A DNA stretch of 64,000 nucleotides from assembly GCA_902529115.1 (NCBI GenBank), contig CABZVB010000001.1, forward strand, positions 186,001-250,000, written 5' to 3'. Positions within the stretch are counted from its first letter, which is position 1. Every line of letters starts with the position of its first letter. Positions 23,607-34,569 of this stretch are shown in pieces. Made by a program: the position numbers and the translations under genes. The stretch comes from an uncultured Balneola sp. Its GTDB lineage: Bacteria > Bacteroidota > Rhodothermia > Balneolales > Balneolaceae. A model generated the notes under the pieces. That model searched no databases. It had not been told where the DNA came from and saw nothing but the letters and a program-made list of their open reading frames with translations.

Positions 23607-24938
23607 TTAGTTCCCAGAACTTGCAAAATAATCAATGACTAAGTGGCTTAAGCTTCTAACACCTAATTCAAGGCCACTTTCATCGATATAAAAGTCAGGG
23701 GTATGGTGTCCAGCTGGAGTACCTCCTTCAGGAAGCCCGCCTAGAAAGAAGTAGAGCCCTGGTATTTGTTCTTGAAAGAATGAAAAGTCTTCTGCACCAG
23801 TGATGGCTGGCATGGTTACCACCATATTTTCACCGGCTGTCTTTTGCAGTGTTGGAACCATTTTTCGTGTTAGTTCGGGGTCATTATAAGTAATGGGATA
23901 ACCAGGCGAAATAGTCACTTCTGCTGTGGCCCCATTTGCTTCTGCTGTTTTTATTGCAATTGTTTTGATACGCTCAAAAATTGCGTCACGCATATCATTA
24001 TCAAGCGCGCGAATGGTACCCTCCATGAATACTTCTTCTGGTATAATATTACTTCTAACACCACCATGTATTTGACCAACGGTTACTACAGCAGCTTCAT
24101 TGGTTAACTCCATATTTCTGCTGATAATAGTTTGAAGGTTGTTTATAATTTGAGCTGATGTTACTATAGGATCTACTCCACTCCATGGTGCTGAGCCATG
24201 AGCTTGTTTACCATTAACGGTGATTTGAAAAGTATTCGAGCTAGCCATAATGCCACCTTCTCTGTAAGTAATCATTCCTACAGGAGTAGCATCGGATATG
24301 TGTAAACCAAAGATAGCATCAACATTAGGGTTCTTTAAAACACCTTCTTTAACCATAAGTTCTGCACCGCCTTCTTCGCCAGCAGGCGCACCCTCTTCTG
24401 CTGGTTGAAATATAAATTTCACCGTACCGTTAACTTTATCTTTCAGCTCAGTTAGTATTTGAGCCACTCCCATTAGAATAGCTACATGGGTATCATGGCC
24501 ACATGCATGCATGACACCAACTTGATTTCCTTGGTACTCTCCTATGGCGGTAGATTTAAATGGGATAGGTGTACGCTCGGTCACCGGCAGAGCATCCATA
24601 TCGGCTCTAAGTGCTACCACGGGTCCAGGGGTAGCACCTTCTAAAATAGCGACTACTCCTGTATGAGCTATTCCAGTCCGGACTTCTAGCCCCAAATCTG
24701 TCAAGTGTTTGCTGATATACTCAGCCGTTTTATATTCACGATTAGATAACTCAGGATTTTGGTGTATGTGACGCCGCCACTCTATCACGCGATCTTCTAA
24801 ATCGGCTGATCGACTATCAATGAGAGTTTTTAAATCTTGAGCATATGCATATTTGGCCATATTTCCCATCAGAAGCACGGTCATGAAAGAACTAAATAAA
24901 AGAAGGGTAACTATTTTTTTTAATGGTCGAGTATTCAT
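23607..24938 (-). CDS. M20 family amidohydrolase (IAA-amino acid / hippurate hydrolase-like), exported
   Basis: A 443-residue dinuclear metal amidohydrolase of peptidase family M20D. Visible metal and catalytic motifs are RADMDALP (111-118), MHACGHDTHV with Cys146 and His148, and FQPAEEGAPAGEEGG with Glu181/182 region. The lid domain follows (INNLQTIISRNMELTNEAAVVTVG), and the C-terminal GAEDFSFFQEQIPG completes the metal site. It removes N-acyl groups from amino acids or peptides. An N-terminal hydrophobic stretch ending YAYAQ indicates export to the periplasm, unlike the cytosolic relatives. It lies 41 bp upstream of the amylase gene on the same strand, so co-transcription is likely although the functions are not obviously related. 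Exact substrate is open. Confidence 0.9.
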   Translation of the reverse strand: MNTRPLKKIVTLLLFSSFMTVLLMGNMAKYAYAQDLKTLIDSRSADLEDRVIEWRRHIHQNPELSNREYKTAEYISKHLTDLGLEVRTGIAHTGVVAILEGATPGPVVALRADMDALPVTERTPIPFKSTAIGEYQGNQVGVMHACGHDTHVAILMGVAQILTELKDKVNGTVKFIFQPAEEGAPAGEEGGAELMVKEGVLKNPNVDAIFGLHISDATPVGMITYREGGIMASSNTFQITVNGKQAHGSAPWSGVDPIVTSAQIINNLQTIISRNMELTNEAAVVTVGQIHGGVRSNIIPEEVFMEGTIRALDNDMRDAIFERIKTIAIKTAEANGATAEVTISPGYPITYNDPELTRKMVPTLQKTAGENMVVTMPAITGAEDFSFFQEQIPGLYFFLGGLPEGGTPAGHHTPDFYIDESGLELGVRSLSHLVIDYFASSGN

Positions 24939-25033
24939 ACTAAATATTTATTTATCAATAGTTTCAGTAAAATGAATTAAAGTAAAGAAGGGTGATCTGT
25001 GAATTGAAATATACTTTAATCATGTCTAACAAC

Positions 25034-25051
25034 TTCAGCAAAAAAGCTGAA
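25034..25051. repeat. Short hairpin (TTCAGC-A6-GCTGAA) downstream of nadA
   Basis: Six-base perfect inverted repeat with a six-A loop, about 65 bp past the nadA stop. It may help end nadA transcripts, but there is no T-tract on either side. Confidence 0.25.
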
Positions 25052-25114
25052 ATCCACAAATAAATGCGAAGTAAGGAATCGTGTAATGTAAGTAAGAATC
25101 TAAAAAGCAACGTC

Positions 25115-26224
25115 TTAACTAAGTTCTAACATTCGTTCTAGCGATAAAATGGCATATTTTGCAACCTCTGGGTCTACCTTAATATGGTTTACCACTCTTC
25201 CTGCCTCGATTTCTTCTAATGACCATAATAAATGGGGAAGATCAATACGATTCATCGTTAAACATGGACACATAAAGGGATTAAGCGATTCAATTTGTTT
25301 ATCAGGATGTTCAGTGATGATTCGATTAACCAAATTCATTTCGGTTCCAATGGCCCACTTAGATCCTGCTGGAGCTTCTTCGATAGTACGAATAATGTAA
25401 TTGGTAGAGCCTGCATAGTCAGAGTGTTGAACCACATCGAAAATACATTCAGGATGTACAATAACCTGTATTTCAGGGTCACGCATTTTAGCGTGCATTA
25501 TATGTTCGCGTGTGAATTTTTCGTGTACGGAACAATGTCCCTTCCAGAGAATGACTCGAACATCTTCCCATGCACCGTCAAATTCGAACTCATTGTCTGT
25601 TGGGTTATAAATGCACATGTGTTCTAATGCTATTCCTAATTTATGAGCAGTATTTCGGCCCAAATGCTGATCCGGTAAAAAAAGGACTCGTTCTTTTTGT
25701 TCAAAAGCCCATTTAAGCATGGTATGCACATTGCCTGAGGTTACACATGCTCCTCCATATTTTCCAACGAATCCTTTAATTGCTGCAGTAGAATTTACAT
25801 AGGTGAGTGGAATTATTGTGTCTCCCCAAATTTTTTGCATTCGCTCCCATCCCTTCTCAGTCTGTTCAATATTGGCCATATCAGCCATCGAACATCCAGC
25901 TCTCATGTCGGGTAAAATCACCTTTACATCTTCTTTGGTCAACATATCAGCCGTTTCCGCCATAAAATGAACCCCGCAAAACACAATGTATTCTACTTCT
26001 GGTATTTCCGCACAAATCTGAGCTAGTTTTAAGGAATCGCCTCGCACATCGGCAAAGTCTATTACTTCATCTTTTTGGTAATGATGCCCAGGGATAAACA
26101 GACGAACACCTAGCCTATTTTTTATTTCTAATATACGACGCGACATCTCATCACTACTTAATTCATTATAGTGATTGGGAATTCGCAGATCGATTTCTAT
26201 ACCTAATAATTCATTTAGCTCCAT
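25115..26224 (-). CDS. nadA: Quinolinate synthase
   Basis: A 369-residue cytosolic [4Fe-4S] enzyme that condenses iminoaspartate with dihydroxyacetone phosphate to quinolinate in de novo NAD synthesis. Sequence marks are [19 protein letters not shown] near residue 46, and three cysteines with the spacing of the B. subtilis-type long NadA: Cys111 ([10 protein letters not shown]), Cys231 (GHCSVHE) and Cys321 (MCPCLTMN), the presumed cluster ligands. Length matches the 368-residue form. The gene lies 179 bp downstream of nadC on the same strand; nadB, which supplies iminoaspartate, is not in the window. The divergent cysteine desulfurase beyond nadC is well placed to help build its cluster, as in the B. 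subtilis nad locus. Confidence 0.97.
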
Positions 26225-26403
26225 AGAAAAAAATAATCGTTTTAATCTAAATTCGAGTAATTTGAATTGATATTGTTTGAAAAGAGTAGGTTTCTACTTT
26301 TCTTATTATCTGTCAATATGATAAAGATAGCATTTTTATTAGTAACAGTTTATACGACCACAACCACAGTTTTTATATATAAATCACCTTTATTTAGTAT
26401 ATA

Positions 26404-27234
26404 TTAATCAATATAAAAGCTAATATCACATGCTTTTACCGAATGGGTAATCCAACCTACAGAAATTACATCAGCCCCGCACTTTCTATATCCAGCAATG
26501 TTGTCTGGACTTATTCCGCCTGATAATTCAACTATTATCGACTTGGGAATATACTTGCGTAACTCTTTTACCTGATCAGGAGTTTGATTATCCAGCATAA
26601 TAACATCCACCTCGGCATCCACTGCCTGTTGCACTTGATTCAGTGTCTCTACCTCTATCTCAATTTTTATCATATGTCCTTGCTGTTTTCGAACCATTTC
26701 TACTGCCTTTGCTATACCTCCTGCAGCCCTTATATGATTATCTTTGATCATAACACCATCATCCAACCGAAATCGATGGTTAAAACCCCCACCACATCGC
26801 ACGGCATATTTTTGGATCATTCGTAGACCAGGTAAGGTTTTACGAGTATCGACGACTTTAATATCTGGGTTATCTAGGCGTTGAATGAGGTCATGAGTTG
26901 TACTTGCAATTCCAGTGAGGTGCTGTAGCAAATTTAAAATGACACGTTCTCCGCTCAGTAATGTGGAAACAGGGCCTTTTACCTTGGCAAGAACTGAATC
27001 TTCTTCAAATGCTTGACCATCTTCAACGGACCAAAAAACCTCGACACCACCACCCAATGCGGTATATACCTGCTCTAGAATCTTTCGACCCGAAAAAATC
27101 CCTGATTGCTTGGCTAAAAAGCGGCCACCTTTTTGGGTAGTTGAATCAAAAAGCCACTGGCTAGACCAGTCACCCATACCAAGGTCTTCTGCTAGTGCTT
27201 GTTTAATAATACGTTCTAAGGTTATCGGGTTCAT
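26404..27234 (-). CDS. nadC: Nicotinate-nucleotide diphosphorylase (carboxylating)
   Basis: A 276-residue type II phosphoribosyltransferase converting quinolinate and PRPP to nicotinate mononucleotide, the step after NadA. Diagnostic segments are ALAEDLGMGDWSS at the N-terminus, VDTRKTLPGLRMIQKYAV in the substrate site, RLDDGVMIKDNHI with the catalytic lysine, and VELSGGISPDNI near the C-terminus. Length is typical. It sits upstream of nadA on the minus strand with a 179-bp gap, long enough for a second promoter or for regulatory DNA. Its start at 27234 faces the cysteine desulfurase gene across a 137-bp divergent region, suggesting shared control. No damage is seen. Confidence 0.97.
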   Translation of the reverse strand: MNPITLERIIKQALAEDLGMGDWSSQWLFDSTTQKGGRFLAKQSGIFSGRKILEQVYTALGGGVEVFWSVEDGQAFEEDSVLAKVKGPVSTLLSGERVILNLLQHLTGIASTTHDLIQRLDNPDIKVVDTRKTLPGLRMIQKYAVRCGGGFNHRFRLDDGVMIKDNHIRAAGGIAKAVEMVRKQQGHMIKIEIEVETLNQVQQAVDAEVDVIMLDNQTPDQVKELRKYIPKSIIVELSGGISPDNIAGYRKCGADVISVGWITHSVKACDISFYID

Positions 27235-31000: not shown

Positions 31001-32410
31001 TTACATGGTGTTTAGGTAATATAGTGTTGCACTACGGTAATTCTGCGCTAAATCTCTTTTCCCTGCATTTTCGTAAGCTTGGGCTACATGAAGTAAGGCA
31101 ATGCGTAGACGTTCTTTTTCAAGTCGATTTAACGAGTTAGGTGTAGCTATAACTGGGATGGTTAATGGGGTACCATCTGCAATGTCATCAGGGTTTTGAT
31201 TGGTATTAAAATTTTCCTCAAATAATAGTACCCAGAGTCGTGGGTTACCATAAATTTCTTTCGCCATATTATAGAGTCCTTTTTCGCTATTGAAGCGTAC
31301 ACTTCTTCTGGAAGAAAACCCTGAAGATGTAGGACTAGCAGTTGAAGGGTTAGTCACATTTTTCGATTTATTAGTAATATTAGCGTTTGAACTATTGGTT
31401 CTTTGTGTTGCTTTAGCAGCTAATTCTGTACGCTCAACACCAGTGGCTTTGATCGGTTGATCCTGCCTAATAGTAGTTGTATTAGTTTGAATTGATTGTT
31501 GGCTTAAATTATTCACATTATCTATCGATCCTGAGCTAAAGAATTGACTCACTGTAGTCCCAATTAAAAAACCACTTACAAAAAGCAAGAAAACACCTAT
31601 TAAGCTACTTGAGATAAATATTTTTTTATTGATACTAATAATATCATTCGATTTAGATTTTTCTCGATCAGATTTTGCATCAATATTTTTTATGACTGTT
31701 TTAAGTTCATCCATTGTCTGAATAAAATCTTTAAGTAAATCTTCATCGATAGGTATATATTTTTTTGGATTACTTGTGCTTTCAATATTGGTAAAAGTAC
31801 TTTCTTTTGTAATATGTTGAGGGCTTGGATCAGGAGTAGTAATGTTGTCTTGTGAAGTTATTTCTAAAGGATGTGTTTTTCCCTTTTCTTCTGCTTGGGT
31901 TTGTTCCTTTCGTTCGGCAGAGTATTCATCTTCAACACGAATATCTATGGAAGAACCCATCATATGCTTCTTTTTTTGCAGAATAATTAGTTCTAATTCA
32001 TCTAATAAGGCAGCTTTTTCCTGAGAATCAATCTCATCTAAATTTTCAGAAAAAGAGTTGTTATTTTTTTCCATCTGAGTATTTGTAACTGTATTGAGCT
32101 CTTTATTCTTTATTTGGATATTTTTCTTATTTACTAGATCTGCTAATCTTTTATATGGGGTAAAGTACATACGTTTATGAGCAGGGATTATAATGCTTTC
32201 ACCTGTACCTGGTTGTGTTCCTTCTCGGTCGGCTACCTCCGAAATGGTAAATCGTCCAAAACCAGAAATTGTTGCTTTACCTTCACTGATGGCCACTTCG
32301 GTAACTGTTTCAGACAAAGTCTGAATGAATGATTTAGCCTCTGATAGATTAATACCGGCTCTTGTAGCAAACAATTCAATGAGCTCACTTCCATTGCGTT
32401 TAAGCCTCAT
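31001..32410 (-). CDS. HU-domain, transmembrane, LysM-like fusion protein
   Basis: A 469-residue fusion. Residues 1-97 align with HU DNA-binding proteins: helical dimer part (ELIELFATRAGINLSEAKSF), then ISGFGRFTISEVADREG and IIIPAHKRMYFTPYKRLADLV, with Pro67 at the place of the arm-tip proline that intercalates DNA. Residues 100-260 are polar and low in structure. A single hydrophobic segment (264-286) follows KK262-263, predicting the HU end in the cytoplasm. The outside part has a Ser/Thr/Asn-rich linker, a LysM-like domain (about 368-421, SEKGLYNMAKEIYGNPRLWV ... GTPLTIPV), and a helical hairpin tail (430-466). It overlaps the stand-alone HU gene by four bases, so they are co-expressed. 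Membrane anchoring of DNA to peptidoglycan is inferred, not known. The LysM assignment is weaker than the HU one. Confidence 0.75.
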   Translation of the reverse strand: MRLKRNGSELIELFATRAGINLSEAKSFIQTLSETVTEVAISEGKATISGFGRFTISEVADREGTQPGTGESIIIPAHKRMYFTPYKRLADLVNKKNIQIKNKELNTVTNTQMEKNNNSFSENLDEIDSQEKAALLDELELIILQKKKHMMGSSIDIRVEDEYSAERKEQTQAEEKGKTHPLEITSQDNITTPDPSPQHITKESTFTNIESTSNPKKYIPIDEDLLKDFIQTMDELKTVIKNIDAKSDREKSKSNDIISINKKIFISSSLIGVFLLFVSGFLIGTTVSQFFSSGSIDNVNNLSQQSIQTNTTTIRQDQPIKATGVERTELAAKATQRTNSSNANITNKSKNVTNPSTASPTSSGFSSRRSVRFNSEKGLYNMAKEIYGNPRLWVLLFEENFNTNQNPDDIADGTPLTIPVIATPNSLNRLEKERLRIALLHVAQAYENAGKRDLAQNYRSATLYYLNTM

Positions 32411-32691
32411 AATCCAGATCCCTTTAATTCATCCTTAATCGCTCTAGTGGGAGTAAATCGTACGATAATTTTTGGGGGTACACGCATTTTCTTCTGGTAA
32501 TGCGGATTATAAGCTATATATGAGGCTCGTTCACGGGTTTCAAATTGTCCTAAGCCAGGAAGTTGAATGGCGTTTTGTTGTTCTAATTCCTCACAAATTA
32601 GATCAACAAAATAATTCAATCGTTTTTCTGTATCATTTTTTGATAGTGATAGTTGCTTACTCAATTCACTGACTAGACGTGCCTTGTTCAT
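32407..32691 (-). CDS. HU family DNA-binding protein
   Basis: A 94-residue histone-like protein, the usual size of HU/IHF subunits. The N-terminal helices are MNKARLVSELSKQLSLSKND, the beta saddle is IQLPGLGQFETRERA, the arm carries the DNA-intercalating proline in YNPHYQKKM, and the C-terminal helix is FTPTRAIKDELKG. It binds and bends DNA as a dimer. The stop overlaps the start of the HU-TM-LysM gene by four bases (ATGA type), so it is the first gene of a two-gene operon. It could form homodimers or heterodimers with the membrane-bound HU domain, an inference from the pairing. Whether this is the main nucleoid HU of the cell cannot be told. Confidence 0.93.
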   Translation of the reverse strand: MNKARLVSELSKQLSLSKNDTEKRLNYFVDLICEELEQQNAIQLPGLGQFETRERASYIAYNPHYQKKMRVPPKIIVRFTPTRAIKDELKGSGL

Positions 32692-32841: not shown

Positions 32842-34569
32842 TTATCGGATTACGGTCATTAATTTTGAAGAAATTTGATCCGATGCGCGGACTCTAAGCA
32901 CATAAGTGCCTACTGAAAGACTATGAAGGTTAACAGAGAATTGTTGCAAACCTGCATCAGCACGACCTTTAAAAACGGTCAAGATATGCCGACCTAATAA
33001 ATCAAATACCTCGATACTTAGTTCGGTTCTATTTGGAAGCGTTAATTGGATAGTAGTTTGATCAGAGGCGGGATTTGGATAATTTTGATTTACTACAATA
33101 TGCTCTCCAAGCGTGTAATCACTAAAGACAAGTTCGAAATATCCATTTATTTGTTCATTGCTGTTATGCACGATAATACCAAGCTTTTGGACATCATCCC
33201 AGTTAATTGTAAGCCGATATTCAATCCATGAACCTATGGCTGATTCGTTATTCAATGCTTGATAAATAGGGGACCCATCATTCAGAAAGGCAATTACACC
33301 GACGATTATAGCCGCATTATCAACCATAGAATGAATACGGACAAAACTTCCAGGGACATCTTCGGCAATGATTTCGTAATAACGGCTAGACATTCGGCTT
33401 AAATCACCCGTAATTTTTCCCTCTATCTGACTATCTAAAACGGGATCAGGTACTGATATATCGAATCCAGTGGCAAAACTAGTGATGGTTTTAGTAATGA
33501 AGGGATCTGGATAGAAGGTGCTTTCCTCGAAACCAAATGATGGATAAATAGAATTTTTTCCTGAGACATAGTGGTATGCGTAGGCCCGCAATAAGTTTGG
33601 CTTCCAAGATTTATTATTTATTTCAAGGGTTTGCTTAGCTGCTTGTAGGAAAGAAATCTGCGGGTCTTCAGCAATTAATTCCCAGGACAAAGGCCAAAAA
33701 TCCGAACCTATAGTTTCATGGAAATACAGTGCGAATGTGACGTCTTCATAAGAACCAGGAATTAAGCTTCTATGGGCTTCTGTAAAAAGATCCGTTGAAA
33801 AATTATCGATGTAATTGTAATAATCATTCACATTATCATAGACTATCTCTTCCATGAGCGTTGCGTCCATTTCTGCCCACTGGTCTGTTTCGCCTTCCCA
33901 TTTATTTTGGATGTATTGAATAGCATGCTTGAATTCATGGGCAATGGTAACTTGAAGTGCTCCTTTTACTTGATTTTTACTGTCATTTGCTGGATACCCT
34001 ACAAAGTCATTTTCACTGTATATGCAGGTACTTGTCAAATTAGCTCCGCAGGAAAAAATACCGTTCCGTGAGGTGTTTGTTAACCCGTAAGCCCCAAAAG
34101 AAGATAAATCCTTTAAGTATATATCGTAGCTAGTACCGCTGGGTATAGGATCTGGGTACCCTAATTCGTTGATTTGAAGTTGATATGAAGAATCTGCGGC
34201 TTCAGCAGCCCATTCGACGTAGTCAGGAATTCCATTTTCATTAGCATCACCATTGTGCACAGCGTCTACACCTTCCGTAACATAGTGAATGCTAAATTTA
34301 CCTGATTTAGAGAGATATTCTTGTCTCTGATTTGTGAATATGTCACTGGTGATAGGGGTTTGCCATTTATCAAAATGGTGCCCAAATCGTAGGGTGGCCA
34401 ACGAATCGTCCTTAAGAAATGGGGTTAGACATTTGGTAATTGAATCGCCGTATGAGACATGTTCTGTAATAGTTTGGGCAGCGGTAGATACACTAAGACC
34501 AATGAATTCGCAAATAAAAACAAACCAAAGTGGACGTATTAAAAAAGTGTAGATCTTTCTGTATCCCAA
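32842..34569 (-). CDS. MXAN_6640-type putative metalloprotease, T9SS cargo
   Basis: A 575-residue secreted protein with signal peptide ending AAQT. The segment FSIHYVTEGVDAV then GDANENGIPDYVEW is the marker of the MXAN_6640 family of putative metalloproteases. The zinc motif is TIAHEFKHAIQY (His211, Glu212, His215), followed by WAEMDATLMEEIVYD, which may contribute the third ligand. A beta-rich region leads to a T9SS sorting domain starting VNQNYPNPASDQTTIQL, ending in LMTVIR. It is thus exported by Sec and secreted by T9SS; it is probably a surface or extracellular peptidase. It stands divergent to trhO with only 21 bp to that frame's first possible start (66 bp to the start I prefer), a tight promoter region. 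Confidence 0.85.
   Translation of the reverse strand: MGYRKIYTFLIRPLWFVFICEFIGLSVSTAAQTITEHVSYGDSITKCLTPFLKDDSLATLRFGHHFDKWQTPITSDIFTNQRQEYLSKSGKFSIHYVTEGVDAVHNGDANENGIPDYVEWAAEAADSSYQLQINELGYPDPIPSGTSYDIYLKDLSSFGAYGLTNTSRNGIFSCGANLTSTCIYSENDFVGYPANDSKNQVKGALQVTIAHEFKHAIQYIQNKWEGETDQWAEMDATLMEEIVYDNVNDYYNYIDNFSTDLFTEAHRSLIPGSYEDVTFALYFHETIGSDFWPLSWELIAEDPQISFLQAAKQTLEINNKSWKPNLLRAYAYHYVSGKNSIYPSFGFEESTFYPDPFITKTITSFATGFDISVPDPVLDSQIEGKITGDLSRMSSRYYEIIAEDVPGSFVRIHSMVDNAAIIVGVIAFLNDGSPIYQALNNESAIGSWIEYRLTINWDDVQKLGIIVHNSNEQINGYFELVFSDYTLGEHIVVNQNYPNPASDQTTIQLTLPNRTELSIEVFDLLGRHILTVFKGRADAGLQQFSVNLHSLSVGTYVLRVRASDQISSKLMTVIR

Follow-up and report, generated by a model that had tools for sequence, protein, structure and literature searches.

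Membrane-anchored HU-type proteins have a precedent in Bacteroidota: Burroughs et al. 2017 reportedly described HU(CCDC81-like)-TM-SPOR proteins in this phylum and are said to have proposed a chromosome-partition role for them. In eukaryotic CCDC81, the HU-type domain has been proposed as a protein-interaction module. To our knowledge, the holding and segregation of the chromosome in Bacteroidota are poorly understood, and we know of no chromosome-envelope linker described as a single polypeptide spanning from DNA to peptidoglycan.

Here, we analysed a two-gene operon in the window (i.e., the whole stretch of 64,000 nucleotides under analysis), which lies in a genome of 1.97 Mb (43 contigs) and encodes a stand-alone HU (hereafter the partner) followed by an HU-linker-TM-LysM protein (hereafter the fusion). 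The same genome carries, outside the window, an HU(CCDC81-like)-TM-SPOR protein (442 aa, L076 1400-2728, SPOR 31.8 bits) followed by ExbB/TolQ-type and ExbD/TolR-type genes (L076 241-2728, minus strand; G000:C1 about 24740-27227). With our confidence evenly divided for and against, we suggest that the operon may form a membrane-spanning, nucleoid-facing anchor linking DNA to the cell wall.

Architecture of the operon

Both gene products match the HU profile PF00216 far above its curated cut-off of 22.4 bits, i.e., the partner with 77.1 bits (E=1.3e-21) and residues 7-94 of the fusion with 66.7 bits (E=2.3e-18). The preliminary description of this DNA, made from the letters alone, had proposed an HU domain in residues 1-97 with Pro67 at the arm tip, a polar linker, a single TM segment at 264-286 and a stand-alone HU gene overlapping the fusion gene by four bases, and these features were recovered (Table 1): Pro67 is invariant in the Balneolaceae fusions, the overlap consists of ATGA, and the sole hydrophobic segment (19-residue mean of 2.33) is placed slightly more narrowly. 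The linker is highly variable in length and sequence among relatives. Lys and Arg count four in the 15 residues on the N-side of the TM segment and none on the C-side, which agrees with the N-in/C-out orientation predicted earlier. Since the N-side flank is the more positive one in 55 of 64 fusions, the HU end is predicted to be cytoplasmic and the LysM end periplasmic.

Table 1. Features of the operon in the window and named records carrying the same operon
Feature	Position in window or accession	Strand	Remarks and basis
HU-linker-TM-LysM fusion, 469 aa	31001..32410	-	ATG at 32410; ORF, PF00216, hydropathy TM, LysM by profile
HU domain of fusion (residues 1-97)	32120..32410	-	Arm tip Pro67, most arm Arg/Lys lost; PF00216 and residue table
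Polar linker, predicted cytoplasmic (residues 98-263)	31622..32119	-	Translation
Single predicted transmembrane segment (residues 265-283)	31562..31618	-	Hydropathy, positive N-side flank
LysM domain (residues 368-421)	31148..31309	-	Profile matches to Kbp and other LysM structures; hhalign 99.4; PHROG 21966 and 7145
C-terminal helical tail of fusion (residues 422-469)	31004..31147	-	Conserved in alignment; helices in low-confidence model
Partner HU, 94 aa	32407..32691	-	Keeps Pro63, Arg55 and PPK motif; overlaps fusion by ATGA
Bacteroides finegoldii	WP_007758232.1 and WP_022275144.1		Same operon
Parabacteroides distasonis	WP_008778384.1 and WP_009275120.1		Same operon
Phocaeicola massiliensis			Same operon
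Prevotella (sp. oral taxon 299)			Same operon, degenerate LysM

The C-terminal domain, earlier called LysM-like, needed family-level comparisons. As a single sequence, the fusion gave no Pfam LysM match, and an NCBIfam LysM protein stayed below threshold (E=0.037). A 17-member Balneolaceae profile matched solved LysM proteins (Kbp 7pvc with 9.6e-11, 9g8s with 3.1e-9), the alignment of the C-terminal region against LysM domains of unrelated proteins reached an hhalign probability of 99.4, and 9 of the 15 Bacteroidales-type members gave a Pfam LysM match at E<=0.01. In contrast, AlphaFold gave low confidence, with a mean pLDDT of 32 for the full-length fusion (five-sequence alignment) and of 50 for the C-terminal 110 residues (five sequences), where two helices lie in place for the LysM beta-alpha-alpha-beta fold and nothing more. 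The LysM identity is thus well supported by profile comparisons, not by the structural model; the helical tail proposed after the domain was also found. Searches with the LysM-tail region separated fusions (E no worse than 6.5e-26) from generic LysM proteins (no better than 4e-15) by a clean gap, and the matches examined in the rest of the phylum, none of them an HU fusion, belonged to BON-LysM proteins or to secreted coiled-coil proteins with LysM. Note that the ligand of a LysM domain can be other than peptidoglycan; Kbp, the best match among solved structures, is, as we take it, a cytoplasmic K+-binding protein.

Upstream of the operon, a protein of 575 aa (32842-34569, minus strand) that carries a C-terminal sorting domain for Por secretion (type IX) is kept beside the HU genes in close relatives. 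Two other origins were rejected for the locus as a whole: an anti-phage defence system, since no PADLOC model matched, and a phage origin, since the PHROG matches are limited to HU and LysM/tail domains of a generic kind, in what is an ordinary chromosomal locus.

Distribution and co-inheritance

The preliminary description had proposed to check its reading by looking for homologues with this domain order and an adjacent HU gene, and many related genomes were found to carry both. An order-wide draw contained 43 Balneolaceae genomes, 38 of which carry the HU and HU-TM-LysM pair; the fusion was found in none of the 37 genomes from other families of the order. When the HU part was used as the query, long HU frames next to a short HU came up in another order, with the architecture stand-alone HU, then HU-acidic linker-TM-LysM; in this second order (Bacteroidales-type), 38 of 247 genomes matched at a strict threshold, and the spread appeared patchy when one genome per family was sampled. 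All named records with the operon belong to Bacteroidales, which rules out that the pair is confined to Balneolaceae. Where annotated, both genes are labelled only 'HU family DNA-binding protein'.

The surroundings of the pair differ between lineages, and the two genes thus travel as a unit. Two annotated Bacteroidales loci read ftsY-rimO-HU-fusion-AAA ATPase (moxR)-DUF58-BatD-like/VWA (bat), and the ftsY, rimO, moxR and bat neighbours recur in several further genomes. In Balneolaceae, where neighbouring genes were identified by eye except for those of the window, hemW and a gamma-carbonic-anhydrase-like gene flank the pair in some genera and an aconitase-like gene in others. These two neighbourhoods (hemW-like gene in L045, L047, L048 and L049; aconitase-like gene in L046, L051 and L053) would mean that the pair moved as a block, or that its surroundings did.

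This variability bears on the view that the fusion is a one-protein transmembrane regulator, in which the LysM domain would monitor the condition of the wall and the HU pair, close to the membrane, would alter the topology of DNA or its transcription (a ToxR/CadC-like logic). The fusion does place a DNA-side and a wall-side domain on one protein, and its topology class is that of known membrane-bound regulators (general knowledge). However, flanking genes that vary between lineages, the general lack of sequence specificity of HU, and a long, polar and variable linker, ill suited to relaying a conformational signal, make such a regulator quite improbable.

To describe the pairing, we counted 87 distinct fusions (46 from Balneolaceae and 41 others) after removal of the membrane-anchored HU-CCDC81-like proteins. 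In 86 of them, the gene immediately upstream encodes a partner HU, most often at a spacing of -4 or -8 bases; for the 87th (L098), the end of the locus cuts the view, and an HU match lies directly upstream in that genome (G092). LysM was detected in 85 of the 87, the exceptions being G021 (frame breaks) and a degenerate Prevotella copy, and exactly one TM segment was predicted in 85. Such a recurrence goes far beyond chance; as an internal control, the HU-CCDC81-like membrane proteins encoded in these genomes lack an HU partner. In the exceptional Prevotella sp. oral taxon 299 (L250 4983-6359), the operon is present and the degenerate LysM suggests that the wall-binding end may have been lost in that lineage.

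A mere HU gene pair with a variable tail, i.e., chance adjacency with a misassigned C-terminus, could be read from the subthreshold single-sequence LysM score and the uninformative structure prediction. This reading is hardly credible, and we consider it refuted by LysM profile matches near 1e-10, the hhalign result and the conservation of HU, TM and LysM in nearly all fusions.

Losses follow the same pairing. In seven Balneolaceae genomes devoid of the fusion (G010, G012, G047, G075, G080, G087 and G425), the partner class is also absent, while in six fusion-bearing Balneolaceae genomes it is present at 1e-33 or better. As an example of decay, G001 (the genus of the window; L044) shows a fusion match full of stops and a partner reduced to a 55-aa remnant. 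From this distribution, the two genes are lost together, repeatedly, and the pair is therefore not essential everywhere.

Probable common descent

In a tree of 83 HU domains (94 columns), the fusion HUs of both lineages group together (100/96), as do the partner HUs (99/94), with ordinary HUs elsewhere. Because of these groupings, common descent is the preferred origin: the duplication that gave rise to a membrane HU and its partner probably preceded the split of the two lineages, or the whole operon was transferred between them. AU tests reject separate duplications per lineage weakly (p of 0.041 and 0.072), so that a single ancestral operon across Bacteroidota is favoured, not proven. Further support comes from the profile-profile match between the two fusion families, which spans the HU domain and a common conserved stretch just after it.

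DNA-contact residues and the proposed anchor

The two HU types differ in the residues used for DNA contact. Ordinary HUs keep Arg55, Arg58, Arg61 and Pro63, with a mean net charge of +7.5. A Lys or Arg occupies position 55 in 96% of ordinary HUs, 100% of partners and 0% of fusions, and position 74 in 100% of partners and 0% of fusions; at position 61, it is found in 0-6% of fusions. The HU domains of the two partner groups have mean net charges of +1.1 and +5.8, and those of the two fusion groups -1.4 and -1.9. Pro63 is kept in Balneolaceae fusions, all members of which also retain Arg58 (Pro67 and Arg62 in the window), and gives way to Val in 10 of the 11 Bacteroidales-type fusions. Every partner sampled keeps K/R55, K/R74 and Pro63; neither partner group retains Arg61, and most Balneolaceae partners have also lost Arg58, which sets the partner, too, apart from a normal HU. 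The basic surface of HU/IHF proteins with Arg55, Arg58, Arg61 and Pro63 is thus complete neither in fusions (55 and 61 lost) nor in partners (Arg61 lost). Both proteins are HU/IHF members by homology, and as such putative DNA binders.

These results leave the earlier HU-fusion reading with its HU-LysM identity and domain order intact, but the HU domain of the fusion is itself short of most DNA-contact residues (in Bacteroidales, even of the intercalating proline). Given this loss, the fusion probably depends on the stand-alone HU as an obligate partner, from which most of the DNA contact would come. Indeed, since partners retain K/R55, K/R74 and Pro63 where fusions lose their contacts, a heterodimer is the simplest reading.

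The domain order, one predicted TM segment, co-inheritance, the favoured common descent and the unequal loss of contact residues are the data on which the anchor rests, and from them we infer topology, dimerisation, DNA binding, peptidoglycan binding and cellular role along the following lines. The partner and the HU domain of the fusion would form a heterodimer in the cytoplasm, the partner contributing most of the DNA-contacting residues; the TM helix would keep this heterodimer at the inner membrane, and the LysM domain across the membrane would, judging from its family, bind peptidoglycan. The net effect would be that chromosomal DNA is kept near, or mechanically coupled to, the cell wall, with nucleoid positioning or segregation as the probable use.

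The main rival to this anchor takes the HU domain of the fusion as a protein-interaction module that brings a cytoplasmic protein (the partner HU or a different one) to the wall with no tethering of DNA. Its acidic to neutral character, the loss of Arg55, Arg61 and Lys74, the exchange of Pro63 for Val in most Bacteroidales-type fusions and the weak HU-CCDC81 matches (sub-threshold in some members, none above the curated cut-off) all speak for such an adaptor. However, the arm proline and Arg58 are retained in all Balneolaceae fusions, and the fusion is obligately paired with an HU of more basic character, in which the proline and several of the basic positions are preserved; we consider the adaptor unlikely on balance.

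Relation to known systems

The presence in this genome of a parallel HU-TM-SPOR protein, next to ExbB/ExbD genes, brings in another function, that of a division or envelope factor whose LysM domain would target the septum or growing wall and whose HU end would exclude or clear DNA (Noc-like) rather than hold it. LysM is not known as septum-specific (general knowledge), and no division gene was recognised beside the pair in the loci examined; such a factor is very unlikely, even though SPOR domains recognise septal denuded glycan (PMC6895207).

Returning to the DNA-to-wall anchor, our literature search found no description of the HU/HU-TM-LysM pair, and Burroughs et al. 2017 might mention LysM fusions. 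The preliminary description had proposed an undescribed DNA-to-wall tether: the pair itself may fit this claim, but the idea has a precedent in the HU-TM-SPOR protein. The pair is a real, widespread and apparently unstudied variant of membrane-anchored HU, to which it adds a dedicated HU partner. Tentatively, and with more doubt than belief, it may be an old and dedicated nucleoid-to-wall tether of Bacteroidota, i.e., an obligate HU heterodimer with a membrane subunit reaching peptidoglycan, parallel to HU-TM-SPOR and unrecognised in major human gut genera. The operon, as a candidate whose two genes are conserved and whose predicted topology is clear, is present in gut bacteria amenable to experiment (Bacteroides, Parabacteroides), and makes testable the question of whether a single protein forms a mechanical link between bacterial DNA and the cell wall. 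A further lesson is that some Bacteroidota genes counted as HU encode membrane proteins, not general nucleoid packers.

Among known systems, Noc, SlmA, RacA-DivIVA and other chromosome-envelope linkers resemble the proposed anchor in linking DNA to the envelope (general knowledge), but share no domains with the fusion. The HU/IHF nucleoid proteins (PF00216) have the full HU profile in common with both gene products, whereas the fusion is membrane-spanning and acidic with its arm residues lost, and the partner forms a clade apart from ordinary HU. Kbp/YgaU-type LysM proteins provide the best sequence match among solved structures for the C-terminal domain; Kbp is BON-LysM and cytoplasmic, whereas the LysM of the fusion is predicted to be periplasmic and is followed by a helical tail. 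The closest likeness is to the HU(CCDC81-like)-TM-SPOR proteins, which also combine an N-terminal HU-type domain, an acidic linker, one TM segment and a C-terminal peptidoglycan-binding domain. In contrast to the fusion, they carry SPOR (for which the LysM fusion gave no match) instead of LysM, lie beside ExbB/TolQ and ExbD/TolR genes without a dedicated HU partner gene, and possess an HU domain that resembles HU-CCDC81 and fails PF00216, whereas that of the fusion passes it.
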